Assembly (NCBI RefSeq): GCF_907164915.1
Contig: NC_061863.1
Span: forward strand, 41,513,382-41,577,381
Origin: Impatiens glandulifera
Taxonomy: Eukaryota; Streptophyta; Magnoliopsida; Ericales; Balsaminaceae
Reading direction: 5' to 3'
Length of the DNA: 64,000 nucleotides
Below are positions 17,182 to 57,278 of this stretch, piece after piece (within the stretch, counting starts at the first letter, position 1; every line of letters starts with the position of its first letter). A program made the translations under genes and the position numbers. Below the pieces are notes generated by a model that was given only the letters and a program-made list of their open reading frames with translations, was not told the DNA's origin and searched no databases.

Positions 17182-17654
17182 TTTTTTAATCGATCTTAAA
17201 TAATCTAAATATTCTAATTAATTCAACTAGTTAACTAAATTATAAAGTTCAAACACTTAATCATCTACAATAAATATGAAATAAGTATTAAGATGTTAAG
17301 TATATTTGTATTTTAAACTTGTGGCTACACATAAATATTATTTATACCAGCATGATTGGATATAAAAAATATATTATTTATATATATAAGGATTTTAAAT
17401 AAAAATAATATTATTTAAATATTTGAATTAGTTTTAATCTGTGAAAATTAAGTTAATCCAAATATAATTTTACTACAATAAAAAGGAAGAAAAATAGTTT
17501 TAAAAAAATTAAAAATTAAATTTTGGATAAAATTATCAGTGAGTTATATAAATTTGTATTCGGATATAATATTTCTTATTATTATATACTTATTTAAAAA
17601 AATATTAAAAAATTATCTAACTAATTTTTTTATTAATTTTTATATTTTTATATA

Positions 17655-18968
17655 TGTTAGGATCTAGGTCGCCGCTGGTGGACCGGGGGTTGGACCGGTT
17701 AGCGGTTCTCACTCGTAGGGTGGTGGTTAATCTGGTTAGAGATTAACATCGGGGTTTCAATACTACACAACCTGTCACAAACCCTTGAACTAGGTTCAAG
17801 CGCGGAAGAGGTTTGCTTTCAGGTTGAAGCGGCACGCTTGTATGATAGGCACGGTCGGTTTCGGATGATGGAGATTTGGAAATGGTGGGTCGGTTTCGGT
17901 AATCTGGATATTCGGTATGATTAGTATAAAGTCGGTTTGGAGCGGTGTGGTTAAGTTAGTCGGTTAGATAATGAAGCCGGCAGAAAGTAAATGACAAGAC
18001 AGATTTTATGGATGTTCGGAGATAAAACTCCTACGTCACCTCTTCCTCTCGAAACCGCGAGAAGGATACTCACTAAGGAATACAAGTACAGGCCGATCGA
18101 GACTTATTTCCTGCTCGATAACACTCTTACAATTTACACCGAAATTGTAAAACACACTTTAACTTTCAACACTTAGGCTTTCTAGCACACTCTATCACTT
18201 GTAGTAAATGCTCTTAATATCACAGTTGTCTCTTAATGTCCCGCTTAAGTCACTTGCATTTACTCTTCTTCAGCTACCCTTTTATAGGTGAAATATGCCA
18301 ACGGTCATATTTCACTGCCTTGAATCTGATTGGCTGATCAGAGGTGCAGTGATTCAGTGTCTCAGAGGTTCAGACCTACGGTCGTTTCCTCAGACCTGAT
18401 GGTCAATCTCAGACCTGGTATTATGTCTCAGACCTGGCGGTCTGTTCTTCCGGTGTGTAAGACAAACCTGCCGGGTTTGTCTTTTACTTGATGTAGGCAC
18501 TGTCTGTTGGACAGTTGTCTGTACTTGGAAGATTTCCTTTCTGGCTTATCCCGAAGTAGAAGGATCCGGTAGTACTGTTTTCTGTAGCCTACGGTCTTTC
18601 CTCAGACTTGCATGGATATGGAAGTATTCAGTCTGTTCCTTTGGTATCATTCTCAACAGATACCCAAATTGTCTTCTTGTACTGGTCGGTCATTTGACTT
18701 GGCCAAATATCTTTTGGTAGTGATGTAACCGAACTTCTTCCGGTTATTCTTGTCTTGTGGATGATCGGCTGTTTGATGGTTCCGGTTTTGAGCTTTGGTC
18801 GATCCTTTCTTTGTGCGGTCACGTTCCGAATACTCTTGATCGGTTTGGTAGCTTGACCGGTTAGGTTTCTTTAGTCGGTTCTCTTGTTCATCCGGTCCGG
18901 TTCCTTGTTCCTGCATGGAAAGTTTATTTAAGTTAGGTTTATTTGAACCGGTCTTATTTTATCTAACA
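17655..18968 (-). repeat. 3' LTR of the Copia element
   Basis: 1,314 bp, matching 30,141-31,454 except for 17 substitutions. It holds a TATAAAAG box (complement of 18279-18286) and, at about 18,360-18,450, four spaced CTCAGACCT/GTTCAGACCT words ending in the palindrome CAGACCTGGCGGTCTG. Reiterated palindromic motifs are known in Sirevirus LTRs. The short frame at 17991-18176 is LTR sequence, not a gene. Confidence 0.95.
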
Positions 18969-19225
18969 ATTTCTCCATTTTTGATTATTTTATTTAAAAT
19001 TATCAAAATCATGTAAATTTGCAACCGTAGGCCGGTTGTTTTGTTTGGCCGGATTTTTGACTTGGGAGAATTTTTCGAAAAGTGTTTGAGAAAAATTTTG
19101 GAAAAGTCTTTATAAGAGTCTATCAGTCTTTATAAGAGTCTATCTTTTATCTTATCAATTTCTCCCTTTTTGATTATTTTATTTAAAATTATCAAAACTA
19201 AGTAGAAATGCAAAATAAGGCCGGA
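18969..19225 (-). promoter_or_regulatory. Duplicated polypurine-tract region
   Basis: The purine run AAAAATGGAGAAAT (complement of 18969-18984) touches the 3' LTR, where plus-strand priming should start. About 190 bp away, the complement of 19156-19171 repeats it as AAAAAGGGAGAAATTG, followed by the same ~45-bp AT-rich block (GATTATTTTATTTAAAATTATCAAAA on both, given here only as landmark halves GATTATTTTATTT and AAAATTATCAAAA). Multiple PPT copies are a described feature of Sireviruses. CTTTATAAGAGTCTATC is also doubled at about 19,109-19,143. Confidence 0.8.
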
Positions 19226-19317
19226 TTCAAAAATAACTTTATATATTTATATGTAGATGACCGGAAAAGACAAAATATATAGAAATACTAAGGCCAATAA
19301 GAAAAGAAGGATAGTCC

Positions 19318-21990
19318 CTATTCAGAGTCCGTGAAATCATAGGCGCTCTTCTTTTTCTTCGGTTGCTGTTGCCCGGTCTGTTCGGAAGATCGTCGCCTTT
19401 TAGATCGGGACCGCAGTTGTTCTTCGACTTCATCCTCGACTTGGTCGGCTTGCTGCGATGTACTCGGGATGACCGGTTCAGAGACTTCTCTGAGCAGCTC
19501 GGCAATCTGAACTTTCTTAGGGGCCTCCCTCTGTCTCTTTTTCGGTGCCGAGGCGGAGGCGGCCGCCTTCTTCTTCTTGTGTTCCTTTGCATAGCCTTCC
19601 AGCCTCCGTGTTTCCCTTTCCAACCGTGCGGCATCTTCCGCAGCTCGGGAGGCTACTTTCTCAGCAAACCCTGGGAATATGGCCTCAGCATTTTTAAGTC
19701 GCGCGGCTTCCACTTCTGCTTCGGTCAGTTGAGACGATCGCGGTGCCTCTTTATCTTTGCTAACTTCGGCGTCCAGCGCATCCTGGACCCTCTTAGCTAC
19801 TTGAGCATCAGCCGCTATAGCCGCGGAGTCCGCGTCCACCTTAGCCCTTAGAATTTCGGTCATTTGTTCGGAGAGCGCCTTTACTTCGGCCACGAGACAC
19901 TCGTTTGTTTTCTCGAGTTCGGAGACCCGGTTAAGTGTTGTGTCGACCCGTTTGAAGTCTTTCTTTAGATCGGAGGCCACATCCTCCAGACTTGCGGTTC
20001 GTTGAGCCCATTTGTCGCGCTCACCGGCCTCTTCCCACAGTCCGTTGCCGAGTTCTGAAAGTCATTCTTGATGTTTTTCTAGAAGCAGCCTTGTCACGTC
20101 GGTGAACTTCAGGGCCGAATCAACTATTCCGTTGTATCTATCCTTGAATGGTTGAAGCTCGGACACGTTGTGTTCTTGTATGCGGTCATCGATCCGCTCC
20201 GATATGGATGCTTCAAGCTTTTGAAGACGGTCCTCAACCCATTCTTTAGCAGCCCATTCTTTAGGAGGGTCTGAAGCGGTGACTTCCGGTGGTGGGGGAG
20301 GTGATTGCTCGGTGGGATCTGGATCGGCTCTGTCATTGGATTCTAATGGTGCCGTATTCTCTTTTGGAAGTTGTAATGGGGCCGCAATCTCCAAGATCTG
20401 TGTCGCATCCTCCACGATCTGTGCCGCATCCTCCATTATCGGTGCCGCATCCTCCATTATCGGTGCCGCATCCTCCATTATCGGTGTCGCATCCTCCATT
20501 GGGGGTGTTGGACAGTTAACTGGAAACTTATCGATTACGGGAGCAGTATAGACCGGTACTTGCATTCGGCCGCATATCGTTTCCAGCCGCTCGATTTCTT
20601 GAAGTATTTCCCTTTTGCCTTTTTCAAGCCGTGTTAACACCCGCGGCGCTACGGTGTCCACCGATCCCGTCTCGTTGTGCTCTTCCTTAATTCTCCGGAT
20701 GCGCTTTCTTAGTTTCCGAAGTTGGATCCTCGGTAACAGGAGACAGGTTCGGCTTTGTACCTCTTGAATTGTGTTGGATTTTGTGAGGCTCATCATCAGG
20801 TCCTCTACTTCCTCCAATCTGTCGATGCATTGTTTTTCCGTGTAGCCCGGTAGGATATTTCTATATGGTGTATCGAACCGGTGCTCATGCCACTCCAAGT
20901 ATAGCTCTTCAACGTCTTCGGCTCGCTTGTTAACGCCCTGAAGGATTTTCTGGGCTAATCTATCGGCCTCTGCCTCTTCGGCCTCCTCCCTCTCCGTGTT
21001 GTAGCCTTCATCATTGGCTTCTTTATCAACCCCTTCTTCACCCTCGGTGGTCTCAGGGTTGGTGTTTGGTTCGGCATCGTTTGGACTCCGAGCCGACTGA
21101 TCGTCGTCATTGACCGTTCTATCATCGGTCCTCTCCGTGTCGGTTTCCGCAGAGGCCCACTCCTCATCTTCTGTGTGCTGAGGTGGGTCGGAGAAGTTTA
21201 TCTTTTCTTTGCCTTTTCCTCCGGTCTTTGCTTCGGCCGGGGCATCTTTCTTTGCGGCTTTCTTCTTTCGGCCACCTGTGGAGCTGGGGGCCGGCTGTGT
21301 CCTTTTAAGGAATTGCCTTGATCTGATGAGGCACCGTTTTGCCACCGCAACACCGGGACCGATGTTGAGATTTAAGTGGAGGAAGATCTTACCGAGGGGC
21401 ACGGCGTATCCCCACGACCGGCTTGAGTCCGGTTTCACCATATCCATGAGGTTGCTGAACACCGATCTTGCCCAGTTGACCTCTTTACTCTCCAACAGAC
21501 CGATTAGCATCTTGATTTTGTCCCTTGTGAGGTTGTTGAGGTTTCCTCCCCTTGCCAGGATTGCCCTTGTGAAAATGTCACATATCGGGATGTACTCCGG
21601 CCTTAGCATTTGCTTGCTCCCGGATGTTTTGATCGGCTTATGAGATGCCGATAGAATGTAGCAAGCCGATTCAAAAGTGTTCTGGTCTATTTCTGCCGTT
21701 GCGTCCTGGCCGGAAGTTGGAAGACGCAGGCTTTCGGCCACCAATTCTTCTGTGAGCTCTATTCGGGAACCGCATACAGTCGCGGTGATCTTGTCGTAGG
21801 CGATAGTTGCGGTTTTGAAGAACTCTTCGACCGCATCTTTGTAAATGACGTGAGGACCGCCTAGGAAGTATTCCAGACCGGTTTTAATCAGCCGGTCAAT
21901 AACTGCATTCGCTTCGGTCGTACCATTCAGCCGGATTTCCTCGAAATCCACCTGAGAGTAGAGTCTGAACAAAGCCGAATCACGACCCAT
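19318..21990 (-). CDS. Copia accessory ORF C, ~890 codons, paralogue 3 with coiled coil and NLS-like tail; one TGA
   Basis: Starts MGRDSALF at 21990, 109 bp after a TATA box. Residues 1-225 carry the domain shared with ORFs A and B: YSQVDFEEI, IKTGLEYFLGG, VEEFF, ELVAESLRLPTSG, ACYILSAS, LRPEYIPICD and VNWARSVFSNL. An acidic Glu/Asp/Thr-rich linker follows (about 270-345), then a helical part, a seven-residue repeat P-I-M-E-D-A-A (about 495-529, from 21-bp DNA repeats) and a Pro-rich stretch. A TGA at 20062-20064 (codon 643) interrupts it. The same frame then runs on through a long Ala/Glu/Lys-rich coiled coil to basic clusters SRSKRRRSS and PKKKK near the end, which look like nuclear localisation signals. 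No TM or fusion segment is present, so an envelope role is not supported. Role unknown; nucleic-acid or chromatin association is a guess. Confidence 0.78.
20402..20506 (-). repeat. 21-bp tandem repeat inside ORF C
   Basis: Five units of a 21-bp sequence (plus-strand GCCGCATCCTCCATTATCGGT, the three central ones identical) encode a heptad-like P-I-M-E-D-A-A repeat. The identity of the middle units points to recent slippage expansion. Confidence 0.9.
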
Positions 21991-22094
21991 GTTAAAGAGT
22001 TTGAGAAAGTGAGAGAGAGAGCCGCTTCAAAAACAGTTAGAAAGCTTAGAGAGAGAAAGTAGATTCGCGTGAGAATGAAATAAAATGACCGAAG

Positions 22095-22260
22095 GTCCCT
22101 TTTATAGATGCGGTTTGGAAGCCCAACCGTCCCATCAATAATGGGCGGGAATTTTCCCTCCAAAATGAAAAGGCGCCAAACTATGGGCGGTAAAACAAAA
22201 GGAGGTGGGCGTCAAATTTGAGCGGGAGATTTCCCTCCAAAATCCTTTATTGATGACGCA
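22095..22260 (-). promoter_or_regulatory. Internal promoter region of ORF C with TATA box and E2F-like sites
   Basis: Minus strand, 5' to 3': TTTGGAGGGAAAT, a second TTTTGGAGGGAAAA, TTTGGCGCC (complement of 22172-22180), ATTCCCGCC (complement of 22144-22152) and TATAAAAG (complement of 22099-22106). TTTGGCGC and ATTCCCGC fit the plant E2F consensus WTTSSCSS. The leader contains CT repeats. The relic at 58.8-59.0 kb keeps GGAGGGAAAA, TTGGCGCC and TATATAAAG in the same order. Confidence 0.5.
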
Positions 22261-22531
22261 CTCTTCTTCTAGAAACCGATGGATTGAACGGTTTCTAGGT
22301 TCAATTGATTATTTAGAGTGTTAACAAATTAGGCAGATTTCATGTGACCGGAAAAGAACGCGGTTATAGGTTGAAGATGTGAACCGATTACTTAGATAAA
22401 TGTTCAAAGAATTGGGAAGACACGGTCATTTAAACTGAAATGATAATGGAATTCAAGAAATAGCAGATAAAGAAAACCGATTATAAGATTCGGTACAGAG
22501 ATAGGCAGACAGAAACAATGTAAAGTATAGC

Positions 22532-23236
22532 CTATTCAAAAGACATTCTCCAGAGTCGTTCTCTTGCCGAATCACTGTCGAGGATGTTTGAAGAAGAAGC
22601 CGGTGTGCCCGGTCCGAACTCTGGTCGGTACCTAAGAATCAGCTTGCTGATGTGCGGTGCATACCCGAGACCTTTCTTGGTCAGCACCATATTCTTTAAG
22701 TTTTCCTATATGACCGATGACCAGTTGATGGCCGATTTGCAAAGAATGTGGGTCATGATGTTGTAGGTATTCCTGGAATACCGTTGATTAGGTGATTGAC
22801 ACAGAATTGACCGGGTCACGATTTCGAGCAGTAGCTGACCGTGACTAGCAAGTTGGGTTTTTGGCCCAAAGTGTTCCACCGGAGAGGGGGTGGCCGACAG
22901 GTATTGCGCGGTTTCAAATCCCGCACGGTCCTGAATAGTCGGAAAGTCAGAGAAACCTTCAGCGGGTAGACCGAATAGTGAGGCAAATTCATCCTCGTCG
23001 ATCCAGAACGTATGGTTTCTGACAGTCGAAACGATGTACTTCCCCCTGATGCAGGCGCTTCGAAAGAAGGCCTTGACATCGTCTAGAAGAATAGGACCGG
23101 CCTCTTCAAGAAACGGTTGAAGACCGGTTTCAGCAAGAGAGTCATACATGAATTTCTGCTTAGTAGTACAATCCCTTATGTCCGTGCAAGAGTTGAAATC
23201 GATGCATAGAAAGTTTCCCAGAGTTCTGCTCGGCAT
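22532..23236 (-). pseudogene. Copia accessory ORF B, paralogue 2, one nonsense codon
   Basis: The start is the methionine at 23236 (MPSRTLGNF), chosen because a TATA box (complement of 23321-23328) lies about 85 bp upstream, although the frame is open to 23359. It carries the same domain as ORF A: CIDFNSC, SLAETGLQPFL, VKAFF, DEFASLFGLPAEGF, QYLSATPSPVEHFGPK and AINWSSVI. A TAG at 22706-22708 then interrupts the most conserved block. Beyond it the frame stays open and homologous (KNMVLTKKGLGYAPHISKL) to a stop at 22532, ending in RERLWRMSFE, which recalls the FERAWRRR tail of ORF A. So about 234 codons with one recent stop. No TM segment is seen. Confidence 0.75.
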
Positions 23237-23320
23237 GATTTCGGTATTTGAGAGAGAGACGGGATTCAAGAATATCAGATGTGATCTTTCGGATGTGATG
23301 AAATGAGTAGAGGATGGCTC

Positions 23321-23328
23321 CTTATATA
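23321..23328 (-). promoter_or_regulatory. TATA box of ORF B
   Basis: TATATAAG on the minus strand, followed by an ACTCATTTC.../CTCTCTC-containing leader of about 85 nt before the ATG. A TTTTTCCCTCCAAAA block sits just upstream, as at ORF C. Confidence 0.55.
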
Positions 23329-23739
23329 GGATCGGTTTTGGAGGGAAAAATCTGAGCATTGATGGTCAGTTTTGTTTTATTAAGGAAAGGAATCTTTACC
23401 TTTTCAAGGCGCATGGGGAAGCGGCAAAGTGCAAGGCCCAAGGTAAATGTTAGTTGGGAAGTAACCAGTTTGGTTGGAAATTAAATGTGCGGGTGGTTGG
23501 GGGTTATTTCATTGATTGGAATTATCTCATTAAATGCACTTGAACATAACCGAGATTAATTAGATAGATGCCGAAAATAACAGAGATAATGCCGAAAATG
23601 GCATACATGAACGATGAAATCAAGAAAGACACAAATAAAGCCGAAGGAAACATGGATGAAGCCGACATGATCAAACTTGAGTTGGACAAGAATACACCCG
23701 GTGCATGAAGCAAAACGACCGGGTGCAGGAAGGAGTGAC

Positions 23740-24489
23740 TCATGGTGCAAAGGTGTTGACGTCACCGTTGCGGTTTCTTCTCCTCCAGGCCCTCTCGAAC
23801 CGCCTATAAAACGGGTCGGTTACTTCTTTGGTGAGCACCTGAGCTTGGTTCAGACCTTCGCCGGGACAGGTTGGGACTCCAAGCTCCACAAGGAGGCTGC
23901 TTATTTGAGGAATGAAACCAACTGATCGGATGCCGATCATCCAGATAAGGGTGTCAAAGAGCACCCTAGACCAATTTACTGGTGTGCCGGTGATTATGGC
24001 CGCCATCATGTTGAAGTTCGAGACACTGTAGGTGTTTGTGACGTCCCTACCAAAAATGCTCTTGCCGATCACATCGTTGAGAAGCTGATATTCAGCTCTC
24101 AGATGTGATTTTGCTCCATGGTCCTCAACCGGGTCGTTAGACCGAGAGAGGGCGATGCAGACTTCGGCTTTTACATCCCCAGGGATGTCCAGATCTGTGA
24201 TCCCGTGCCTTGGTAGGCTATGACACCTTGCAAAGTCCCGTTCAGTGAAATCGAAGACAATGCCTCCCACCTTGGATTGGATGTGGGTATCAAAGTGGGG
24301 GGTGCCCCGAAACACCCTTGCATTGTGGAAGAACTCCAGAACGGAGTCCGGATAGATGGAGTGCTTGTCACATAGGAAACTTTGGAGGCCGGTTTCCTCC
24401 AAAGATTTTATCATCTTGTATATTTCATACTGGTCTGTGGAAGAACAGGACTGAAAATCAACCTGAAGGATGTTGGGAAACTGAGACAT
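23740..24489 (-). CDS. Copia accessory ORF A, 249 aa, paralogue 1 of a three-gene set
   Basis: Function unknown. The frame opens at 24552, but a TATA box (complement of 24552-24559) precedes it, so I take the methionine at 24489 (MSQFPN). It shares a ~200-residue domain with ORFs B and C and the relic at 57.5 kb. Anchors in order: LQVDFQSC (8-15), SLEETGLQSFL, a VLEFF helix, DFARCHSLPRHG, IALSRSNDPVEDHGAKSHLRAEYQLLND, KSIFGR and VNWSRVLFDTL. The C-terminus is short and basic (FERAWRRRNRN). No TM segment, signal peptide or zinc site is visible. The domain resembles unnamed 'putative plant transposon protein' domains. The frame is intact, the only accessory ORF here without a stop. By position it fills the place of the Sirevirus env-like gene, but nothing in it looks like an envelope protein. 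Confidence 0.75.
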   Translation of the reverse strand: MSQFPNILQVDFQSCSSTDQYEIYKMIKSLEETGLQSFLCDKHSIYPDSVLEFFHNARVFRGTPHFDTHIQSKVGGIVFDFTERDFARCHSLPRHGITDLDIPGDVKAEVCIALSRSNDPVEDHGAKSHLRAEYQLLNDVIGKSIFGRDVTNTYSVSNFNMMAAIITGTPVNWSRVLFDTLIWMIGIRSVGFIPQISSLLVELGVPTCPGEGLNQAQVLTKEVTDPFYRRFERAWRRRNRNGDVNTFAP

Positions 24490-24550
24490 TTTGTGCCTTA
24501 GTGAGAGGATGTTCTTGTGACTTGTGAGTGTTGTGGTGAACGTTTGCTTC

Positions 24551-24560
24551 ACTTAAATAC
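24551..24560 (-). promoter_or_regulatory. TATA box of ORF A
   Basis: TATTTAAG on the minus strand (complement of 24552-24559), about 63 bp before the chosen ATG. A matching arrangement occurs upstream of ORFs B and C and the 57-kb relic. Confidence 0.5.
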
Positions 24561-24565
24561 TAGTT

Positions 24566-25003
24566 TAGGGACTATCCTATTGTCCAGGCATTAAATGGGA
24601 TGACATGTATTAACTGCAGGATAAGAGATATTGCATAAAATAGGCATGTTTGCAGTCTAGGTGTCGGTCATAGGCTTGGACTGTGAAAGATATCAAAAGA
24701 TCTTCACGTCTTTTTAGGCGCGACCATATTACTTTGAAAGGGCAATGTTTCAGAACAGATATCTACAAGCATTGATAGTTATTCCACATCTGTGTGAAAT
24801 TCAAATAATCTAGAATGACCTGCTTCCAAACCGGTCAGGTATCAGTTGTTCATCCCGATGCGGTTATTTGGTGCATGCACCAAGTAGCTGGTCGGTTTAC
24901 TCTATCTGATAGACTGGGCGGTTCTTCCACAGACACCCTGAAGATTCGAAGTTCAACAGTTTAGGAAGAATTACCGGTTTTGTCTGTCTGAACCGGTTTC
25001 CCT
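24566..25003. other. Spacer between pol and ORF A
   Basis: About 440 bp with no ORF. It includes CGGTT/ACCGGTT-rich words shared with the LTR and the other spacers. I see no splice sites that I would trust. Confidence 0.6.
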
Positions 25004-26479
25004 TTAAGCATCCTTTGGAAGGATTTGGCTAATATCGGTTAAGCCGAGAGTAAGCCTGAATTGAGAAAACTTAGCTTCCTGTAGCGGCTTTGTGAAGATA
25101 TCGGCTACTTGTTGATCGGTCGGTACGTATTCCAGCCGGATATGCTTCAGCGTGACATGCTCCCGGATGAAATGATGCCTTATGTCGATGTGCTTGGTTC
25201 TGGAGTGGAGAACCGGATTGTAGGTGATCGCTATGGCACTCGTGTTGTCACAGAAAATCGGGGACTCTTCGGCTATGACACCGAAGTCCTTCAGCTGCTG
25301 TTGGATCCAGAGGAGTTGAGAACAGCAACTTCCGGCCGCCAGGTGTTCAGCTTCTGCAGTGGATGTGGCCACAGATGTTTGCTTCTTGCTATGCCATGAA
25401 ACGAGCCGGTCACCAAGGAACTGACATGTTCCGCTGGTGCTTTTTCTGTCAATCTTACACCCTGCATAGTCTGCGTCTGAGTAACTTGTTAGATTGAAGG
25501 ACGAGTCTTTTGGATACCACAGACCGACATCATGTGTTCCCTTTAGATACTTCAGTATCCTCTTTGCAGCTGTGTAATGTGATTGCTTTGGATTTGCTTG
25601 GAATCTCCCACAAACACCAACTGCAAACAGGATGTCCGGTCTACTCGCTGTCAGGTACAGTAGGGAACCGATCATGCCCCGGTATGCAATCTGGTCTACC
25701 GATTGGCCCTCATCATCTCTGTCCAGTTTTATGGATGAGCTCATTGGAGTAGCCGCCGAGGAGCAGGTGTCCATACCGAATTTCTTTAGCAGCTCCTTGG
25801 TATATTTAGGTTGACTGATGAATGTTCCTTCCTTGAGTTGTTTAATCTGAAGACCTAGGAAGAAACTTAATTCTCCCATCATACTCATTTCAAACTTGTC
25901 AGTCATCATTTTTGAAAACTTGTCACATAGCTTAGGATCGGTGGAACCGAAAATAATGTCATCTACATAAATTTGAACAAGTAGGATATGTTCCTTCTTT
26001 TCAAATTTGAACAATGTCTTATCCACCGAACCAATGGTGAAATCATGTTCTAATAGAAATGCGGTTAGTGTATCATACCAGGCTCTAGGTGCTTGCTTTA
26101 GACCGTATAAAGCTTTATTTAGCCGGTATACGTGGTTTGGAAATGCAGCGCTTTTGAAACCGGGTGGTTGTTCAACATACACTTCTTCACGTAGGTCACC
26201 GTTCAGAAATGCACTTTTAACATCCATTTGAAAAACCTTAAAGTTTTTGAAAGCAGCAAATGCAAGAAAAATCCTAATGGCTTCAATTCTGGCTACAGGA
26301 GCAAATGACTCTTCAAAATCAATGCCTTCTTCCTGTTTGTAACCTTGAGCCACTAATCTGGCTTTGTTCCTCGTGACCAAACCGTCCTCATTGAGTTTGT
26401 TTCTGAATACCCATCTTGTTCCTATGACCGATTGATCTTTCGGTCTGGGGACTAGGTACCAGACTTTACTACTCTCGAA
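25004..26479 (-). CDS. pol: Copia pol, reverse transcriptase and RNase H part
   Basis: Continues in frame after the TAG at 26480. It starts with the WYLVPRP and [12 protein letters not shown] landmarks of the RT N-terminus; the first internal Met is at 26380. Counting from there, the RT catalytic Asp is D53 ([11 protein letters not shown]), followed by [12 protein letters not shown] and the active-site YVDD at 138-141 ([11 protein letters not shown]). RNase H follows, with [27 protein letters not shown] and a DNTSAIAI motif, ending at a normal C-terminus. All expected catalytic residues are present. The single nonsense codon is a CAG-to-TAG type change in sequence context, so this copy should make RT only by read-through. 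Confidence 0.92.
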
Positions 26480-28279
26480 CTAGTTTAGCTCTTCTTGCAT
26501 TCCCAAGATCCAATCCGGATCTGACAATGCTTCATCTATTCTTTTCGGTTCAATCTGGGATATGAAAGCTGAGTTAAAATATCCTTCCAGAAGTTGACTC
26601 CTAGTTCGAACAGGTTCTGAAGGGTCACCTATAATTTGCTCAGGAGGATGTTTACTGTTCCTTCTGAGATTCAGTTCAGGGATGTCTACCAAATTACCGT
26701 TAACTTGACCAAGGCTAGACATGTCGGTAGGCTGAACGAGATTGTCAGACCGACCGACTCCCTCGGATTGGACCGAAGTGTCAGCTTCCTGTTGTGGAAC
26801 AGCTTGATCCGGCTGGGTATCAATAATACCCATTTGGTCATGGACAAACCGCCTGAAGACCGGAGTCTCATCTTCACAATCAGAATGGATATCGTTATTT
26901 TCCAATTTGTTGTGTAGATCAAAGCATGAAGCAGTATTGCTTTCAACCGATTCATCGAAAACAACGTGAATTGTTTCCTCTATGGTTGCAGTTCTATTAT
27001 TGTATACTCTATATGCTTTACTTACTGCCGAGTACCCTAGCATGATGCCGGTATCGGTTTTTGCATCAAAAGCGGTGAGTTGGGTTTTACCATTTATAAG
27101 AATATAACATTTACAACCAAAAATCCTGAGGTACTTGAGTTTGGGAACTCTGTTAAAATAAACCTCATACGGTGTTTTGTTGTGAAATCTGTTTATCAAA
27201 GACCGGTTTTGTGTATAGCATGCAGTGTTGATAGCCTCAGCCCAAAATTTCTGAGCAATGCCTGAATCGGCTATCATGGACCGTGCGGCTTCCTTGAGAG
27301 TCCGGTTTCTTCTCTCGGCCAGGCCATTTTGTTGAGGAGTCCTAGCACTAGACAACTCGTGTCTAATGCCGGATTCGTCAAGATATGCAGTTAATGTACT
27401 ATTGGTAAATTCGGTACCTCGATCACTTCGAATGCTGTTAATGCGAGTTGATTTTTCATTTTGCAGGCGCTTAAGGAGTGTGATCAGGTTTGATACGGTT
27501 TCACGTTTAGATGGTAGAAATATTACCCAGGTATATCTAGAATAATCATCAATAACTACCATGGTGTAAAGCATACCTCCTAGGCTAATGACCTGAATCG
27601 GTCCAAATAGATCCATGTGAAGAAGGTCTAAGCATCGGCTAGATTGGATATTTCCATTATTCTTAAAAGATGACCTAGTTTGTTTACCCATTTGGCATGC
27701 TGAACAAACCTTATCCTGGTTAAATACTATATCAGGAATACCTTCAACTAGCTTTTTACCACGAATGTAGTTTAAGGTTTTCATGTTTAGATGGTTTAGT
27801 CTCTTGTGCCACAACCAGGTTTGATCAGTCTTAGCTATCATGCATATAAGATATTCTATTCTGGTTTTCCAGTCTACCTTATAGATGTTACCTATCCTAT
27901 TTCCGGTTAGTACTACAATACCTTGAGAGTTCTTAACTAAGCATGCATGTTTAAGGAATTCTACCGTGTATCCGGCATCACACATCTGACTAATACTAAG
28001 TAGATTAAAACGTAGGTTTTCAACTAGAAGTACATTATCAATAGTTAGATTACCATGGACAATCTTACCCTTGCCCACAGTTTTACCTTTTGAGTTGTCA
28101 CCGAAGGTAATTAGAGCACCAGTTACTGATCTGATGTCGGTTAGCAAACTGCTACTTCCGGTCATGTGCCTGGAGCAACCGCTGTCCAAGAACCATTCGG
28201 AGTTTCCTAGCTGTTTCTTTGGATCCTGCAAAATGTACATATTTACAACTGTTTGGTACCCACATTTACTTGGGTCCAC
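26480..28279 (-). CDS. pol: Copia pol, protease and integrase part (600-codon frame)
   Basis: First half of pol. The aspartic protease motif DSGCSRHMTG starts at residue 32 from 28279. The GAG-pre-integrase zinc site is H158/H163/C192/C195 (WHKRLNHLN...CSACQMGKQ). The integrase catalytic triad is D223 (HMDLFGP), D286 (SDRGTEF) and E322 (GLAERRNR), giving the 35-residue D-E spacing of DD35E enzymes. The codon at 28279 is GTG, and an in-frame stop lies 12 nt upstream, so this frame is not started independently but must be reached by +1 frameshift from gag or has been split off by an indel. It ends at one TAG (26480-26482), after which homology continues in the same frame into RT. Confidence 0.92.
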   Translation of the reverse strand: MDPSKCGYQTVVNMYILQDPKKQLGNSEWFLDSGCSRHMTGSSSLLTDIRSVTGALITFGDNSKGKTVGKGKIVHGNLTIDNVLLVENLRFNLLSISQMCDAGYTVEFLKHACLVKNSQGIVVLTGNRIGNIYKVDWKTRIEYLICMIAKTDQTWLWHKRLNHLNMKTLNYIRGKKLVEGIPDIVFNQDKVCSACQMGKQTRSSFKNNGNIQSSRCLDLLHMDLFGPIQVISLGGMLYTMVVIDDYSRYTWVIFLPSKRETVSNLITLLKRLQNEKSTRINSIRSDRGTEFTNSTLTAYLDESGIRHELSSARTPQQNGLAERRNRTLKEAARSMIADSGIAQKFWAEAINTACYTQNRSLINRFHNKTPYEVYFNRVPKLKYLRIFGCKCYILINGKTQLTAFDAKTDTGIMLGYSAVSKAYRVYNNRTATIEETIHVVFDESVESNTASCFDLHNKLENNDIHSDCEDETPVFRRFVHDQMGIIDTQPDQAVPQQEADTSVQSEGVGRSDNLVQPTDMSSLGQVNGNLVDIPELNLRRNSKHPPEQIIGDPSEPVRTRSQLLEGYFNSAFISQIEPKRIDEALSDPDWILGMQEELN

Positions 28280-30101
28280 ATGCGATTAGTCCCTTAGGTA
28301 CCCAAACTTTGATAAACCGGACGGTCTTCTTTGCTAGAGTTTTAACTGTCCTTTTGACACTTGGTCTGGTGTATTTCGGTTTTCCTTCAAATGTCCTAAA
28401 TGGTGATGGTCTTTGGTTCGGTGATCTATGGTTTGACCTACGCGGTTCAGGAAAGTTTTTCTTATATCTGAGGATTTCGGCTTTTCTTTTCTCAGGGTCA
28501 AGCCATGAATCGGTTGGACCAACATAGTCGTATTTTAGCTTTTCTTCCCTATAGTATGCGGTCTCCTCTTCTTCAGCTGTACAGGTGCTCTTAAGAAATT
28601 TTATAAAAGGAAGGTTTCCTTTTGTAAGCCTTGCTTTCTCTATGGGTTTTCGGTCTTTAGAGCTATTCTCTGTGTATCCAAGGCCACGCTTACAACGAGG
28701 GTGCCTGTAGTGTTTATTCATATTTTTTACTATATCGCTAGATCTCTTATAGGCGGCCATCTTATATTGAAGTCGGGCATTTTCTTCCTTGGTTAGTTCT
28801 CTAGTAGGTTCACTAGGTTGTTCGGTCTTAGGATCTAATTCGGTTTCTAGATTATGGGTATCATCAGATTGTATGACCTCCGGTTCAGGTATGATAAGTA
28901 CCTCTGGTTCTGTTGGAATAGGTGTTATGGAGTCGGGCTTGATATTGAGGTGCTTAGGTAGCATGGTCAATAGGTTCTTATATTCTTCTACCATGTCATT
29001 CAATGCATTGTATAACTCATCTTTAGTAAATTCCTCACAAGGAGAGTCAAATACCTGTTCCTCATTGGCCATGAGACATGTGAGTTCATCGTCACTATCA
29101 CTGCGAGCCCATAGATTTCCTCCATCGTCGGCTATCAGTGCTTTCGGTACCTCACTTCCTTCACCGGCTTGTTGATAATTGTTTCTGTCATTTTGATATT
29201 CCGGTTTCTGGGTGTCCCTCCTTGGTTTCCTGCATTCCCACTTAAAGTGTCCCAAACAGTTACAGTTATAGCATCTTACATTGGATTTGTCACCATAGTA
29301 GTTGTTCATAGGTTGGCTTCTTTTCATGAACCTCCCAAACTTCTGTGCAAGCATTGCCATGGCATCCTCAGTGAACTGTTCGGCGGTTCTGATCGGTGCG
29401 GGTGCAGGAACCGGTATCGGTGCAGGTGTAGGAGCAGGTGCAGCCGGTTCTGTAGATGTGATTAGTGCTCTGGTTGATGTTGAGGCCGAGACTTCCTCTT
29501 CTGTTCTAGATCTCATTTCGAACTCATATGCCTTGAGATCTTCGAATACATCGTATAATTTCATCTTACGTAGGCTCTTTGATTCCCTCATTACCATTGT
29601 TTTTATATCCCAGGCACTTGGAAGAGATCTCAAAGCCTTCATAACTACCTCTTTGTTCTCATATTTCTTGTCCAGAGTTGCTAGTTCATCTAACACGCCA
29701 GTGAACCGGTCACTGTATTCCTTCATAGTTTCTCCTGGTTTCATTTTGATGCTTTCAAACTTCTGTGTGGCCATCATTATTTTGTTCTCCCTTGTTCTTT
29801 CATTTCCTTCAAAGATCTGGATGACCGTGTTCCATGTCTCCTTCGCGGTTTTGCAATCTCTGATCTTGCAGTATGTGTTTCTGTCCACGCTGTTGGAGAT
29901 CCGGTTTCTAGCATGGTTGTCCAGATTGTTCCTTCTCCTATCTTCAGCCGTCCATTCTTTTCTATCTTTATCAATGAATATCGGTCCTTCGGTCAGAATG
30001 GATTCCATTTCATCATCCAAGGTGACTAGGTGCAGGTGCATGCGTGCCTTCCAGTTGGCAAAGTCATCACCTTCTAGCATTGGAGGCCTATCCTGATACA
30101 T
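28266..30101 (-). CDS. gag: Copia gag (capsid/nucleocapsid) polyprotein, 611 aa
   Basis: Encodes the structural protein that packages element RNA in cytoplasmic particles. Residues 10-200 form a UBN2/Retrotran_gag-type domain (NWKARMHLHL near 16, KETWNTVIQIFEG near 87, GETMKEYSDRF near 123). A Pro/Ala/Thr-rich linker spans 215-240. A single CCHC zinc knuckle is at C277, C280, H285 and C290 (CYNCNCLGHFKWEC). An acidic stretch and a basic Lys/Arg-rich tail follow, ending KVWVPKGLIACGPK. The ATG is 25 nt after the PBS, so it is the first available start. The frame is intact. It ends with TAA 14 nt inside the pol frame, which continues in +1; a single reading frame is more usual in Copia elements. 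Confidence 0.93.
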   Translation of the reverse strand: MYQDRPPMLEGDDFANWKARMHLHLVTLDDEMESILTEGPIFIDKDRKEWTAEDRRRNNLDNHARNRISNSVDRNTYCKIRDCKTAKETWNTVIQIFEGNERTRENKIMMATQKFESIKMKPGETMKEYSDRFTGVLDELATLDKKYENKEVVMKALRSLPSAWDIKTMVMRESKSLRKMKLYDVFEDLKAYEFEMRSRTEEEVSASTSTRALITSTEPAAPAPTPAPIPVPAPAPIRTAEQFTEDAMAMLAQKFGRFMKRSQPMNNYYGDKSNVRCYNCNCLGHFKWECRKPRRDTQKPEYQNDRNNYQQAGEGSEVPKALIADDGGNLWARSDSDDELTCLMANEEQVFDSPCEEFTKDELYNALNDMVEEYKNLLTMLPKHLNIKPDSITPIPTEPEVLIIPEPEVIQSDDTHNLETELDPKTEQPSEPTRELTKEENARLQYKMAAYKRSSDIVKNMNKHYRHPRCKRGLGYTENSSKDRKPIEKARLTKGNLPFIKFLKSTCTAEEEETAYYREEKLKYDYVGPTDSWLDPEKRKAEILRYKKNFPEPRRSNHRSPNQRPSPFRTFEGKPKYTRPSVKRTVKTLAKKTVRFIKVWVPKGLIACGPK

Positions 30102-30126
30102 GTTTGCTTGAGTATTGAAACTAACT

Positions 30127-30138
30127 GCTCTGATACCA
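30127..30138 (-). promoter_or_regulatory. Primer binding site, initiator tRNA-Met
   Basis: The minus strand reads TGGTATCAGAGC, complementary to the 3' end of plant initiator tRNA-Met. It lies two bases inside the 5' LTR edge, as in most Copia elements. The gag ATG follows only about 25 nt later. Confidence 0.95.
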
Positions 30139-30140
30139 AT

Positions 30141-31454
30141 TGTTAGGATCTAAGTCGCCGCTGGTGGACCGGGGGTTGGACCGGTTAGCGGTTCTCACTC
30201 GTAGGGTGGTGGTTAATCTGGTTAGAGATTAATACCGGGGTTTCAATACTACACAACCTGTCACAAACCCTTGAACTAGGGTCAAGCGCGGAAGAGGTTT
30301 GCTTTCAGGTTGAAGCGGCACGCTTGTATGATAGGCACGGTCGGTTTCGGATGATGGAGATTTGGAAATGGTGGGTCGGTTTCGGTAATCTGGATATTCG
30401 CTATGATTAGTATAAAGTCGGTTTGGAGCGGTGTGGTTAAGTTAGTCGGTTAGATAATGAAGCCGGCAGAAAGTAAATGACAAGACAGATTTTATGGATG
30501 TTCGGAGATAAAACTCCTACGTCACCCCTTCCTCTCGAAACCGCGAGAAGGATATTCACTAAGGAATACAAGTACAGGCCGATCGAGACTTATTTCCTGC
30601 TCGATAACACTCTTACAATTTACACCGAAATTGTAAAACACACTTTAACTTTCAACACTTAGGCTTTCTAGCACACTCTATCACTTGTAGTAAATGCTCT
30701 TAATATCACAGTTGTCTCTTAATGTCCCGCTTAAGTCACTTGCATTTACTCTTCTTCAGCTACCCTTTTATAGGTGAAATATGCCAACGGTCATATTTCA
30801 CTGCCTTGAATCTGATTGGCTGATCAGAGGTGCAGTGATTCAGTGTCTCAGAGGTTCAGACCTGCAGTCGTTTCCTCAGACCTGATGGTCAATCTCAGAC
30901 CTGGTATTATGTCTCAGACCTGGCGGTCTGTTCTTCCGGTGTGTAAGACAAACCTGCCGGGTTTGTCTTTTACTTGATGTAGGCACTGTCTGTTGGACAG
31001 TTGTCTGTACTTGGAAGATTTCCTTTCTGGCTTATCCCGAAGTAGAAGGATCCGGTAGTACTGTTTTCTGCAGCCTACAGTTTTTCCTCAGACTTACATG
31101 GATATGGAAGTATTCAGTCTGTTCCTTTGGTATCATTCTCAACAGATACCCAAATTGTCTTCTTGTACTGGTCGGTCATTTGACTTGGCCGAATATCTTT
31201 TGGTAGTGATGTAACCGAACTTCTTCCGGTTATTCTTGTCTTGTGGATGATCGGCTGTTTGATGGTTCCGGTTTTGAGCTTTGGCCGATCCTTTCTTTGT
31301 GCGGTCACGTTCCGAATACTCTTGATCGGTTTGGTAGCTTGACCGGTTAGGTTTCTTTAGTCGGTTTTCTTGTTCATCCGGTCCGGTTCCTTGTTCATGC
31401 ATGGAAAGTTTATTTAAGTTAGGTTTATTTGAACCGGTCTTATTTTATCTAACA
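30141..31454 (-). repeat. 5' LTR of the Copia element (promoter LTR)
   Basis: Starts TGTTAGGATC and ends ATCTAACA on the plus strand, so on the coding strand it begins TGTTAGAT. The TATAAAAG box (complement of 30765-30772) should set the transcript start about 30 bp further downstream on the minus strand, leaving about 590 bp of R-U5 before the PBS. CAGACCT motif reiterations lie upstream in U3, at about 30,846-30,934. Confidence 0.95.
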
Positions 31455-31459
31455 ATATA

Positions 31460-36212: not shown

Positions 36213-39108
36213 CCTCTAACACTAAGTTATATTGTCCAATTTATAATGAGAGTGTTTGGAAAGATGGAACCTGTAACACTATGGTTTATAATGAGAGTAT
36301 GACCTCTAACACTATGATTTGAGTAACCTAGATGCTTCCAAGCATTGCTTTAATTATATTTCATTGGCGATTATCCTAACAAGGATAACTCTGGGAGTCC
36401 TGTTTTTAAATATCTTAACAAAGTACCCGTAAAATCCATAGGATAATGACACAAAGATATTTATAGGTGTTGAAACATCAATTCCTACTTAGCATAAGTA
36501 TTAACAGATTATTGAAGTTTAGTTATGTATAAATGACTAATGGTTAATGTCATAAGGTATGAAGGGAAAATGAAAGTTGTAGTAACATTTCATGTGGGTT
36601 ACTAACAAGTAACACTCGGGGTGATCATATGTGTATGATCGGTATAAACACCTTTTTTTACTAGTGATAACACATTTTAAATCTTAATTTTTTTTAAGAA
36701 TACCAACTCAAATCTGATCTCATAATGACAAATCGAACAAAATATAACACCAACTCAAATTTGAGTGATAGAGATAAAAATGAGATGCTTTCTAAAATTA
36801 GAAAAACCACCTAAGGGACAAGAGAAAAATGTTTTTTCATTTATTTCTAAAGTTTTCTCTAGACATAAAAAATAATCATAATCTGTATTAAAGAAGTATT
36901 GATTTAAAAGGTTAGATATTTTTATTTATTAATTTCATAATCTGTAAGATTTTTAATAGGATTAATAATTATTTTTATAATAATACAATTAACATTAAAA
37001 GTTTCTTCCAAATACTAATATTTGCAGTTGCATTTGAGTTTTAAAAAATAAAATACCATTAATAATATATAATATATTTTAGTTATACATATATCAATGA
37101 ATATAATAATATTTTTTTAATCTAACTCACAATTTTATTGAAGTAAACATATATTTAATAAAATATGTATTTTATAATCAAATTATAAATTAGAATATTA
37201 AAATAAGAGTTTTCCTTTATTTTTTATTAATATAATTTAAAATATGAAACTAAACAAATATATAGATGTATAGATGCTTAACACACTACTTTAAAAAGTT
37301 AAAACATTTTTCCGTTTAATTTATAGATTTCATAATCCTTAAAAGATTTGAATAGATTAATACATGTTTTTGTAAGAAAATAATTAATGTTCATAGTTCC
37401 AACTAAATACTAATATAAATACTAATATTTAGAGATGCATTTTATTTTGAAAAAAGTGAAATTTAATAATAGAACAAACAAACATGAGAAGAATAGACAA
37501 TGTAGGTAAGAAATAAAAGAACTCAATCGGACTTTCAAATACTTTAACGGCATATGTCGCCTCAAAAAAAAAATTATTTTCTTTTTATTCTATCAATCGA
37601 ATTATCTTGATTCAGTTAGATAGTCGAGAATCAAATTTATGAATAACTCTCTCAAATTCACAAATAATTTTGAGGTTGGTGAGAAGTAGCATTTGAATTT
37701 TTTGAAAATTAAACTAATTTCAAGTTATCGTTGAATTGATTTATTTATACTTTATTGAAATCAAGTGTGTCACAAAGTTGAGTTATCTCTTAGTTCATAC
37801 TATTTTGAATATTTTGTTGATTTTTAGACTTTTTTTTTGGAAAACGATTTAACGTTATTTCATTAAAAATTCTCTAAAATGGGAATAAAACCAAATGAGT
37901 TTCTGTATTTTACTAGATAAGTCTAGGAAATTAAGTTTGTTACTGTCTAAGAACAAATGAATTACAAACAATTATCGAAATTACAAACAAATTTAAATTG
38001 CGTTTATCTCGCTAAAAAAACAGAGTCTTTGGTGACTTCCTGATATGATATCTTCCCGTTCGTGCAGAAGTTCCAATTTTGTTCGTTTTTTGGAACTCTT
38101 CTCCAAACCTAGATGGTTCGCACTACAGTCAGTTATAATATCATCCCAGATCTACTCTAGACTTCTTCGATTTCTCGAGAATGCCCTTGCGTTTCTCTCT
38201 TGCTAGAGATATTGTAAACTGTTGAGCCGAATCCGTATTTGAAAATCTTCAACTTAAACTTTGTGCCCTTCACTTTATTCACTACAACTTCCTTGATTTC
38301 TTTCTAGTCTCCCGGGAATCTAGTCATCTCCATATGTTTTTGCAAATTTATTCCAAAGTTTCGAGACAAATGAACAGTTTCCGAAGAGATGATCAGATGT
38401 TTCTTCATTTCCTTCACATAGTAGAAAACTTGAATCCGGAATTTCCATGTACTTCCTGAAGCGATCTCTCGTGTTTAGCCTTTCCCGAAGAGCAAGCCAT
38501 AGGATAAATTGGTATCTCGGGATAACCTTTGACGACCAAACCAGATTAACGCAATCTACTATTTTCTTATTCTCTCGGATGGTGTTCCACACTTTGCTTG
38601 AAATCATCTTCCCGTTTTCCTCGGCTTTCCATCGGTGTACGTTTGTTCTTTTGTTGAATTGGATATTACTGATATGTTCAAGAATGTGCCACCCCACTGA
38701 TATTTGTCTAAGGAGCAAAATCAATAGCCCGTATTTAATGTCTCTAACATTGGAAGCTAGGTAGTCCTGTCTGATCCTCACATTTCTAAATTCCTCTTTA
38801 TTGATTATCGGTTGGTCCTCATACCAGAGATCATGTAAAAACAATGTGTTTTTGTCGTCTCCCCAACTAATATCAAAAAGTCCTACAATATTGTTTCTTA
38901 TCTTAATAATTTTCTTTAATGACCATCCCATAATTTTGCTTATTTTGGATGTCCAAATGCTTGATTCGTGTTTCATAAACCGGGTGTGAACCCACTTAAT
39001 CCAGAGTGATTCTTGTTTGCTCTAAATGGCCCATAGGTACTTATAAGTCAACGTTTTATTCCATTTAATATAGTTCTTGAGCTCTATGTCGCCTTCTTCC
39101 ACTGGTTT
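36213..39108 (+). repeat. Large direct duplication, copy 1
   Basis: Collinear with 61,168-64,000 (window end) with few differences, starting at CCTCTAACACTAAGTTATATTG in both and running through non-coding sequence into the LINE. The shared part crosses the LINE 3' boundary near 37,830, so DNA outside the LINE is duplicated too. Copy 1 has a small internal repetition of CTCTAACACTATG near 36,292-36,322. A more diverged partial copy of 36,905-37,200 lies at 41,160-41,430. Confidence 0.9.
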
Positions 39109-42129: not shown

Positions 42130-43280
42130 ACTAATTTCGGAATTTTATATAGTTAAGTTTTATTTGTGAAATATATTAAATTATTTTTCGGGAATCTTGG
42201 TATCTTATTTATAAATAAAACATAGTAGTTTTATTTAAAAAATGAAAATCCACATTTGACATATACATATAAGTTATAATTGACATGGGCATATATTTTA
42301 AGTTATATTTTTAATTGTTAATGGTCATCAATGGATTTTGATTTGAGTGGAGGAGTATGAGTAACCAAACATATGTGTTAAAAGAACTTATTTATTAAAT
42401 ATATATTCATATACAAAATTATAAAATTAATTTAACAAGAGGATTCTAATGATTAAAATTTTCACATTTCGATTACTTTGAGATTTGGGTTTGATTTTAG
42501 TTGTGTATAAATTCATTTTTACCTCTTAAATTAAAATTATAAATCTCAAAAGTCACACACTTTATTTTAAAAATTACTTTTTAGTTGGCTCATTTAACAT
42601 AATAAAATTTATAATTAATTTCTGATGATATCGTATTAATTGAACATCCCAAATTATTTAGTTGGACTTTCCAAAATAACTAATCCGGGCATGTTTTAAA
42701 AATATCTAAATCAGGTTAGAATAATTAAATAAATAAATAGGACGTTGATTGAGCGACTATGATAATTTCTCCCAAAGATTAAACAAGTTTTATCAATCCG
42801 TTTCACCAATTTGACATTAAAAGTTGAAAAATAAAAAAAAAAAAAAAAGGAAAATGCACATCAACGTGAACATAATAATTATGATATTTTTTCTAAAATT
42901 GTAGATAACATGAAACAAATCTCAACTTGACGTTCATGTCGTAAGCGAGATCTTGCTATTTGATATTTTCATAGACATTCCGCAATCAAGAATCTTACAA
43001 AATCTTCAAAAAATACAATAGATGAATAACCTTTTATTTGAGGATATTACATCAAATTCGCGAACTACATAACATAACGTAGAACGATCGTCATTGTTCC
43101 AAAATTTATTTTTTCCTATTTTTTTCATGAGGTCGAAAGAGTAAAAAAAAAAAGAGTAAGAAAGAGATATAAAGTGAGAAAAAAATATTAAATGAAGGGA
43201 GATAGAAAATTACTATTGCTTAAATTTAATTAAATCCCACATACATATAATTCCTTCATTTTCAAATTTGCAACCAAATA
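42130..43280. repeat. Diverged repeat upstream of the pararetrovirus insertion
   Basis: 42,200-42,760 resembles 49,990-50,720 (AACATCCCAAATTA, AAATCAGGTTAGAATAATTAAAT). 42,890-43,270 resembles 48,310-48,640 (GTGAAACAAATC, AGAATCTTACAAAATC, GAACTACATAACA, GATATAAAGTGAGAAAAA). No gene is seen. Confidence 0.7.
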
Positions 43281-43318
43281 TTGATTAAGTGTCACTTCAA
43301 TTCAACCCATCATTCTTT

Positions 43319-43322
<4 letters not shown>

Positions 43323-43410
<88 letters not shown>
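43323..43410. repeat. (AT)44 microsatellite abutting the pararetrovirus sequence
   Basis: An 88-bp uninterrupted AT dinucleotide run. The virus-like reading frame begins directly at its end. AT dinucleotide tracts are known flanks of endogenous plant pararetroviruses. Confidence 0.97.
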
Positions 43411-43412
<2 letters not shown>

Positions 43413-44805
43413 AAATACTGTTGGACAAAAATAAAAATTAATAATCTTGAAATCACAGAAGACACAAAAAGATTAATAATTCAAACTCTACAAAATTCAG
43501 AATTTGAAGAATCTGATTCAGATTCAATACCTAGTGATTCTGAAATAGATGACCTAGATAATGAAAACATTTCTGAATCAAGCTCGGAAGACTCTGAATG
43601 TGAGCCTTGCCGATCAGGATTAAGTTGTCCTAAAAAAGAAACAAATAACCTAGATCAAAATATTGATAAATCAGAATTATATAGAATCATATCTCAATTT
43701 TCAGATATGAAAATTAATGTTTTAACATCAAATCATGCTTTTGAATTACTAAAAGCCATCAAAGACCCAGAATTTAGAATGCAGATCATAGATCAGTTTA
43801 ATTCTGAAGAAGGAACTTCATCCTCTAAATATGAAGAGCCAGAAGAAAAGAGGTTCAATTATAATAATCATAATAAATCTTACACTATGAGTGAAGTAAT
43901 GAATCAACTTAGACCCAAGATTCAAAACAAAGAAGAGAATACAACCCTCACAAATCTTTACAAAGAAATAAATATTTTAAAGGAAGAAATTAAGATATTA
44001 AAAAAGAAGAATATTATACAAGAGTCTAGATTAACTAAGCTTGAGGATAAACCTAGCGAAAATAATCAATATAATGACAACAAAGCAGAAATTGAAGAAA
44101 ATATCTTCTCAGAATTTTTTTTATCCACAATAGAAATGGTTAAATCCCAAAAATGGCACATAAAAATATCTCTCATAATAAATAATCATTATACAAGGTC
44201 ATTTACTGCTCTTGTTGATAGCGGAGCAGATTTAAATGTTATTCAGGAAGGACTAATCCCTACTAGGTATTTTCATAAAACAAGCCATACCCTGTGGCAT
44301 GCAGGGGGATAAACTCCAAATCCGATATAAGCTTCCAAAAGCCTATATATGTACTGATAATAAATGCATTCCTCAAAGTTTTATACTTGCTAAAGATATA
44401 TCAAATCAGGTCATACTTGGAACCCCATTTTTAAACACAATCTACCCTATTAAGATGATTAACAATAAAGGTATTACAGGAACCTTCCAGAAACATGATA
44501 TTTTTCTAGAATTTATTGTGGAACCGTTTACTAAAATGTTACATAGTATATATGATAATATCAAAGCAAAACAAGATCAAATATACTTTCTAAAGCAAGA
44601 AATAAGTCTTATAACAATAGATGAACAACTAGAAAATCCTAAATTACAAGAAAAAATAGCTCTGCTAAAAGACCAACTTTCAATAGATATTTGTAATGAA
44701 CATCCTAATGCATTCTGGGATAGAAAGAAACATATAGTTTCACTACCATATGAGGAATCTTTTAATGAAAAGAATATCCTACAAAGGCAAAACCTTGCCA
44801 AATGA
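43411..44805 (+). pseudogene. Pararetrovirus structural C-terminus and aspartic protease
   Basis: The frame open from 43,281 includes translated AT repeat (Ile-Tyr), so the true coding part begins at about 43,411. It encodes an acidic Glu/Ser-rich stretch, a region with SQFSDMKINVLT, a predicted coiled coil (LYKEINILKEEIKILKK) and then the retropepsin motif LVDSGADLNVIQEG, with the catalytic Asp at 44,217-44,219. A frameshift within 44,285-44,312 moves the reading into the next frame, which continues through VILGTPFL (the protease's second conserved block) and a linker to 44,805. A second shift near there returns to the RT frame. Movement-protein and most capsid sequence are absent. Confidence 0.8.
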
Positions 44806-56620: not shown

Positions 56621-56984
56621 TAAATTAAAATATAAATATTTTTAAAGTTGGTTTAAAACTTAAAATATAATATTAAATATATATATATATATATTGCACA
56701 CAACATTAATTTTTGCAAGCTAATACTAATAATTCAAAAAAAATGAAAACAAAATATCCTAATTTAGGACACATGCTCTCTAACTCTAACTAAAACCCCT
56801 AAAACTCCTCTAGGCCCCTCCTTCTCGACCAATCCAGATCTTCTGTTATCTATTCCGGTGTTACCCTATTCTGGACCAATCATAATGTAACGTTATTATT
56901 TTACTATTAAATCAGCTTCATTCATGTAAAATAAAACATGAGAAGTGCAACACAAAGGAAGGAAATGAGCATTTTACATCAGGA

Positions 56985-57260: not shown

Positions 57261-57278
57261 GGTGATAGCGATCATTAT

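Follow-up and report, generated by a model that had tools for sequence, protein, structure and literature searches.

What are three related genes doing between pol and the 3' long terminal repeat (LTR) of a Copia retrotransposon? The question is posed by a stretch of 64,000 nucleotides of Impatiens glandulifera (contig C2 of a 654-Mb assembly; the whole stretch is termed here the window), in which such an element of 13,800 bp occupies positions 17655-31454 of the minus strand. It bears on an old open question, namely what the env-like genes of plant Copia elements do, as the region holds three conserved genes together with a structural lead to a known DNA-binding protein with anti-silencing activity. 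The reality of this old, selected, three-gene accessory architecture is well supported. Functionally, the genes are read below as a separately transcribed, nuclear, DNA-binding module with an anti-silencing or regulatory role, and not as an envelope; this reading as a whole is given a probability of about 0.45.

The three genes follow pol in the sense orientation, in the order C, B, A. Gene C (23740-24489, minus strand, as for all features of the element given below) encodes 249 residues, and gene B (22532-23236) spans about 234 codons. The product of gene A (19318-21990) is longer: its N-terminal domain is followed by an acidic middle with tandem 7-residue repeats, encoded by a 21-bp tandem repeat (20381-20506, repeat family D10), and by basic clusters near the C-terminus. 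A domain of ~200 residues is common to the three, with BLASTP identities of 34% for C-B (E 4e-22), 30% for C-A (E 2e-21), and 31% for B-A (E 2e-15). The N-terminal domains display 33 invariant columns, including the DF, TGL..FL, FF, LP..G, and NW motifs, and gene-wise profile-profile comparisons yield E-values of 9e-32 (A-B), 8e-36 (A-C), and 3e-43 (B-C). No clear transmembrane (TM) segment is found in any window product, the highest 19-residue hydropathy being 1.51. A first-pass annotation, made from the letters and open reading frames (ORFs) of this DNA, had described three post-pol ORFs sharing one such domain, strongly diverged and devoid of TM segments. BLASTP, invariant columns, and profiles agree on the relatedness of the three domains, their 30-34% identity attests to the divergence, and the hydropathy values bear out the third point. 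The range 19318-24560 given there is correct for the three genes plus the TATA box of gene C; some of its ORF ends belong to a broken copy, and with the stops included B extends to 22532 and A to 19318.

In the window copy, pol, B, and A are each interrupted by a single in-frame stop, at 26480, 22706, and 20062, respectively. Each of these is confined to the window copy among the 19 (pol), 20 (B), and 20 (A) copies aligned, window included, and they therefore look like damage; programmed readthrough, which three such stops might suggest, was rejected on this ground. Other stops and frameshifts are found in many sister copies, each being the copy's own. At least 39 sister copies exist besides the window (40 places scored of 796 candidates), and 20 of the 39 were taken for analysis. 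The order pol, C, B, A is found in 19 of these 20, with pol deletions in L016 and L026, while copy L010 holds gene A only, and in part. Pairwise dN/dS (non-synonymous over synonymous divergence) across copies amounts to 0.17 for the integrase (IN), 0.09 for the reverse transcriptase (RT), 0.20 for C, 0.32 for B, and 0.39 and 0.36 for two parts of A; L010 and L026 were left out for IN and L022 for C, and L010 entered the other comparisons only for the final part of A. Among variants common to two or more copies, amino-acid changes are depleted in every gene (p 0.0012 to 4e-25, p-values that treat variants as independent although the copies are related). The three accessory genes are maintained by purifying selection. 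Two expectations of the first-pass annotation, that sister elements keep the module and that dN/dS lies below 1 in each ORF (0.20-0.39), are thus confirmed.

The shared domain appears, at the sequence level, to be related to the Pfam family Transposase_32 (PF20167), known from Athila elements. Gene C of the window reaches 29.8 bits (E 7e-7) and gene A 15.1 bits, below the curated cut-off of 45 bits, and gene B has no PF20167 match in Pfam; five of the nine members of alignment A3 match the family, the best at 4e-10. According to the excerpted text of PMC11728184, the 3' ORF of a sunflower Athila carries PF20167, a family stated there to be related to PF03078. The window proteins have no Pfam match to Athila ORF-1 (PF03078) at E up to 1, and none to DUF1985. 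The plant mobile domain (PF10536) shows a similar motif pattern by eye but was rejected, with no Pfam match and an hhalign probability of 0.1-0.3; its side of the hhalign comparison consisted of three near-identical sequences only, and a very remote link is possible. Genes with this domain form clusters in the assembly at C1:149.5-151 Mb and C6:23-43 Mb, with 14 nearly full-length matches.

Using PF20167, 150 of 3,707 candidate places in the genome were scored, all 150 having E <1e-6, and 43 of them reach the cut-off of the family. Eight (L029-L031 and L033-L037), picked non-randomly for their differing ORF lengths, were read, and all eight lie in elements with the C-B-A order, each gene best matching its positional counterpart. 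Their gene C products share 35-72% identity with that of the window. Some of the genes are disrupted by stops or frameshifts, and gene C of L035 is truncated at the end of its stretch. Six of these elements have an RT of the same type upstream, which for L029 is located in the adjacent L032; in L031 and L035 the sequence read stops short of it. By its pol, L036 is a close relative (RT 98% identical at the protein level), the others being more distant. A maximum-likelihood tree was built with 34 domains of 12 elements, namely the window copy, three of its sister copies, and the eight relatives, excluding the C pieces of L033 and L035 (shorter than 150 residues). Each gene forms one group in it: A (100/100), B (96/92), and C (77/50), the support for the latter being modest. 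The triplication thus predates the split of these elements and is old, not the outcome of recent tandem copying.

A protein search with gene C gave no match at 1e-3, a mixed profile retrieved two Impatiens proteins, and a profile of gene A retrieved 51, all from Impatiens, within the 7,990 scored candidates that had the most words in common with it. Of the earlier proposal of a captured transcription unit, duplicated twice, the three old paralogues stand; capture from a host gene is not supported, all 51 gene A matches being Impatiens glandulifera gene models. As a practical consequence, these NCBI models, several of which are named "titin-like", "myosin heavy chain-like", or "calponin homology domain-containing", are probably mis-annotated retrotransposon genes, judging from their match to the gene A profile.

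Each of the three genes is preceded by a TATA box and a short leader: TATTTAA at -70 of C (24553-24559), TATATAA at -92 of B (23322-23328), and TATAAAA at -116 of A (22100-22106). These boxes are identical in 20/20, 19/20, and 20/20 copies, respectively, window included, a conservation that is uninformative because the upstream DNA is 96-98% identical among copies. Across nine elements, a TATA box lies 66-121 bases upstream of 25 of 26 starts, whereas 300 dinucleotide shuffles yield 1.6 on average and at most 5; gene B of L034 is the sole start devoid of it, and the ATG is missing at the expected place in three starts (L030 C, L033 B, and L034 A). Gene A further displays two E2F-like sites, TTTGGCGC at -190 (22173-22180, 17/20 copies) and ATTCCCGC at -162 (22145-22152, 19/20 copies), named for their resemblance to the E2F consensus. 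The pattern WTTSSCGC occurs upstream of gene A in eight of nine elements (shuffled mean 0.8, maximum 5 in 500), of gene B in one of nine, and of gene C in none of eight. In the ninth gene A upstream region the GGCGCC core is present, and L036 harbors TTTCCCGC and ATTCCCGC in place of the TTTGGCGC form, both fitting the consensus. Expression via splice acceptors was considered and rejected, acceptor-like sites being found for A in 1/9, B in 0/9, and C in 0/8, below the shuffled means of 2.3, 3.1, and 1.5. Of the claim that each gene follows its own promoter, the TATA box and leader are thus in place, and the promoter activity is a prediction from sequence.

Structurally, the AlphaFold model of the gene A domain, of modest quality, returned one standout match, VANC21 (9lnj), an anti-silencing protein of VANDAL DNA transposons that binds DNA. 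Among the other matches listed, probabilities did not exceed 0.08 in the PDB and 0.23 in BFVD. Nothing resembling a capsid, RNA-binding, or envelope fold was prominent among the structural matches listed, although a gene A model this weak excludes nothing. From this one model, the domain may adopt a VANC-like fold.

A second likeness to VANC systems is a dense short motif, AACCG. Its density is 11.4 per kb in the LTR, 9.4 in the spacers of the window element, and 9.6-10.3 in those of five relatives, as compared to 0.9 in the window outside the element. Ten stretches with triad elements contain 5.1-8.8 per kb versus 0.7-1.2 in five control stretches, and the motif is five- to tenfold enriched in these elements. 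The control pentamers AACGC, AAGCG, AATCG, and AAACG, of comparable composition, do not exceed about 3 per kb in this LTR and these spacers. The excess extends to coding DNA. When synonymous codons were shuffled in 12 coding pieces, AACCG was found 104 times against a mean of 46.9 (maximum 61) and GACCG 74 times against 36.3 (maximum 53), whereas none of the four control pentamers exceeds expectation. In 8 of these pieces, AACCG taken by itself is significantly in excess (p <0.05). By our own count, 8 of the 13 repeated motifs published for Sireviruses contain ACCG or CGGT (PMC2829016, excerpt). The same excerpt states that such motifs are found in the linker only where an ENV gene is present.

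Single genes also appear, from the sequences, to have been replaced between elements, as natural cassette swaps. Compared with the window in 200-base steps, sister copy L022 has an identity of 87-99% outside gene C, 70-78% within it, and 85-88% in the steps straddling its ends. Its gene C (L022:3999-4688) groups with that of L036 (100/97), and its genes A and B with the window's sister copies. Such a swap, of gene C alone, is found in one of 19 copies. When the window is compared with L036, identity is 66-77% in C, 68-75% in B, 84-87% in the spacers flanking C, and 72-76% in the B-A spacer, while dS reaches 2.9 in C (saturated), 1.1 in B, 0.57 in A, and 0.38 in RT. Positive selection on C and B was rejected, omega being 0.06 and 0.25, respectively, with dS raised; low omega together with raised dS suggests an exchange of older alleles and not adaptive amino-acid change.

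Taken together, these observations suggest the following scenario. Two duplications of one transcription unit would have yielded C, B, and A, each transcribed from its own TATA promoter and not from the LTR, gene A being switched on in dividing cells via its E2F sites. The shared domain would be a DNA-binding fold resembling that of VANC21, and the products would enter the nucleus, recognize short motifs of the ACCG type, which are dense in the element, and act against its silencing or regulate its chromatin in some other way. Promoter activity, nuclear entry, DNA binding, and anti-silencing are what we infer for the three genes. If the scenario is true, a counter-silencing strategy would be common to LTR retrotransposons and VANDAL DNA transposons.

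Several points weigh against this scenario. No sequence similarity between VANC proteins and the accessory genes was detected. Elements show no significant difference in the base that follows AACCG (p 0.22), and this fits poorly with the family-specific targets of VANC. The AACCG excess is possibly of mutational origin, and MYB binding is another possible cause. The TATA and E2F patterns were defined once the sequences had been inspected, and the elements, being related, are not independent, so that the shuffle counts are flattering. A bolder form of the proposal is tentative, and less probable than the general one: a Copia VANC-type system in which three separately promoted DNA-binding paralogues recognize ACCG and strip silencing, their genes being swapped as cassettes. 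The "envelope" genes of Sireviruses, accompanied by CGG-CCG palindromes (most of which have ACCG half-sites) in the linker only if the gene is present, would in that case be anti-silencing factors rather than envelopes.

The alternative that survives best is that the proteins bind DNA to regulate transcription of the element itself, as Tat-like activators of the LTR and internal promoters, and do not act in anti-silencing as such. It accommodates the same structural and motif evidence, the motif being present in the LTR and spacers, but the motif excess in coding DNA is not predicted by a promoter-only role, and this alternative is considered doubtful. Somewhat less probable are nuclear or particle proteins devoted to transport of the pre-integration complex, gag assembly, or the targeting of integration, in which case the ACCG enrichment would have another purpose. 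The selection of the genes along with pol and the basic clusters of the gene A product are consistent with such roles, but proteins that work structurally with gag and pol would not usually have a TATA box per gene or undergo a single-gene swap. Suppressors of RNA silencing, binding small or double-stranded RNA, are improbable: this role has been suggested for other extra ORFs of plant retrotransposons, but the suggestion, in the excerpt of PMC11728184, was made for 5' ORFs of Tekay-type elements from grasses.

Envelope-like or cell-to-cell movement proteins are slightly less probable still, despite the location between pol and the 3' LTR, shared with the env-like genes of SIRE and Athila (PMC2829016 and PMC7264820, excerpts). 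The window products are devoid of TM segments, the genes are three paralogues with a TATA box each, and splice-acceptor sites are not in excess. Paralogy, TATA boxes, the lack of TM segments, and maintenance by selection each withstood testing, making a distinct accessory system a better reading than an envelope, as the first-pass annotation had suggested. Finally, decaying functionless passengers, with TATA boxes arising by chance in AT-rich DNA, would account for the broken pol, B, and A of the window copy and for the stops and frameshifts of many sister copies, but they are contradicted by the dN/dS values, by the same three genes in diverged elements, and by the TATA counts against shuffled DNA, and can hardly be entertained.

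The favored reading, a regulatory or anti-silencing module, may be set against systems already described. SIRE/Sirevirus (Maximus) elements, as far as the excerpted sources go, are alike in the Copia pol order, large size, +1 pol, and sense extra ORFs between pol and the 3' LTR, whereas here three paralogues with a TATA box each are found, without TM segments and without the AGGGGGAG octamer. The ORF eORF-3'F is present in 74% of SIRE elements (PMC6317226, excerpt). Neumann et al. sorted the SIRE eORFs into 19 groups with little mutual similarity, and the excerpted text mentions no tandem paralogues. According to the first-pass annotation, Sireviruses are known to have at most one env-like gene at this place. 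In sunflower, the Ty3 element Athila bears one PF20167 ORF (PMC11728184, excerpt), compared to three such genes in a Copia element here. VANC of VANDAL transposons is alike in the gene A model match, the dense motif, and tandem peptide repeats; it differs in transposon class, in that the motif here is not family-specific, and in that the function here is a prediction. Grande gene23 is also an extra ORF of a plant LTR retrotransposon, with its own promoter and a nuclear product reported (PMC7264820, excerpt). However, both gene23 and the Retand ORF are antisense and belong to Ty3 elements, that of Retand with Transposase_28, whereas the present genes are sense genes of a Copia element. Among the top-listed papers, no title or opening abstract describes a tandem three-gene module of this kind.

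The element itself is delimited by a pair of LTRs of 1316 bp, 98.7% identical by blastn, with ends reading TGTTAG..CTAACA. The 5' LTR (TG..CA) spans 30141-31454 and the 3' LTR 17655-18968, flanked by a TATAT target-site duplication (TSD) at 31455-31459 and 17650-17654. The sequence following the 5' LTR, TGGTATCAGAGC (30127-30138), is a primer binding site assigned to tRNA-Met. Gag (28266-30101) contains a CCHC knuckle, and pol (25004-28285), in the +1 frame relative to gag, contains gag_pre-integrs, integrase core, and RVT_2 domains (Pfam). The TG..CA LTRs, the TSD, and the integrase located upstream of an RVT_2-type RT are those of Ty1/Copia elements. The pol presumably resembles that of SIRE/Opie. 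Three Sirevirus-like traits are found, namely the +1 pol, the 3' sense extra ORFs, and the large size of 13.8 kb. As documented in the excerpt of PMC2829016, pol is +1 to gag in many Sireviruses, whose hallmark is the AGGGGGAG octamer, in several copies ~10 bp before the 3' LTR, with a variant octamer in two of them. The exact polypurine octamer has 0 copies in the 13,800 bp of the element, which is therefore not filed as a Sirevirus despite its +1 pol. At the 3' LTR junction, a 72-bp direct repeat in two copies (18964-19224, repeat family D16) contains other purine stretches; this duplicated purine-rich stretch is faintly reminiscent of Sireviruses, which have multiple polypurine tracts.

Elsewhere in the window, a strongly diverged relative of the A/B/C domain is located at 57240-57767 (minus strand; tblastn E 1e-13, about 29-30% identity to C), with no Pfam match, and adjoins a 58-bp tandem repeat (56984-57273). 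Short remnants of the L030/L031 type, of a B-gene end (58465-58542) and of an A-gene start (59013-59081), lie on the plus strand, and a second triad element may thus have decayed there. Another retroelement, represented by protease, RVT_1, and RNase H pieces, occupies 43251-47385 (plus strand), and positions 38323-39021 (minus strand) encode a zf-RVT domain (E 1e-18), which occurs in non-LTR elements.

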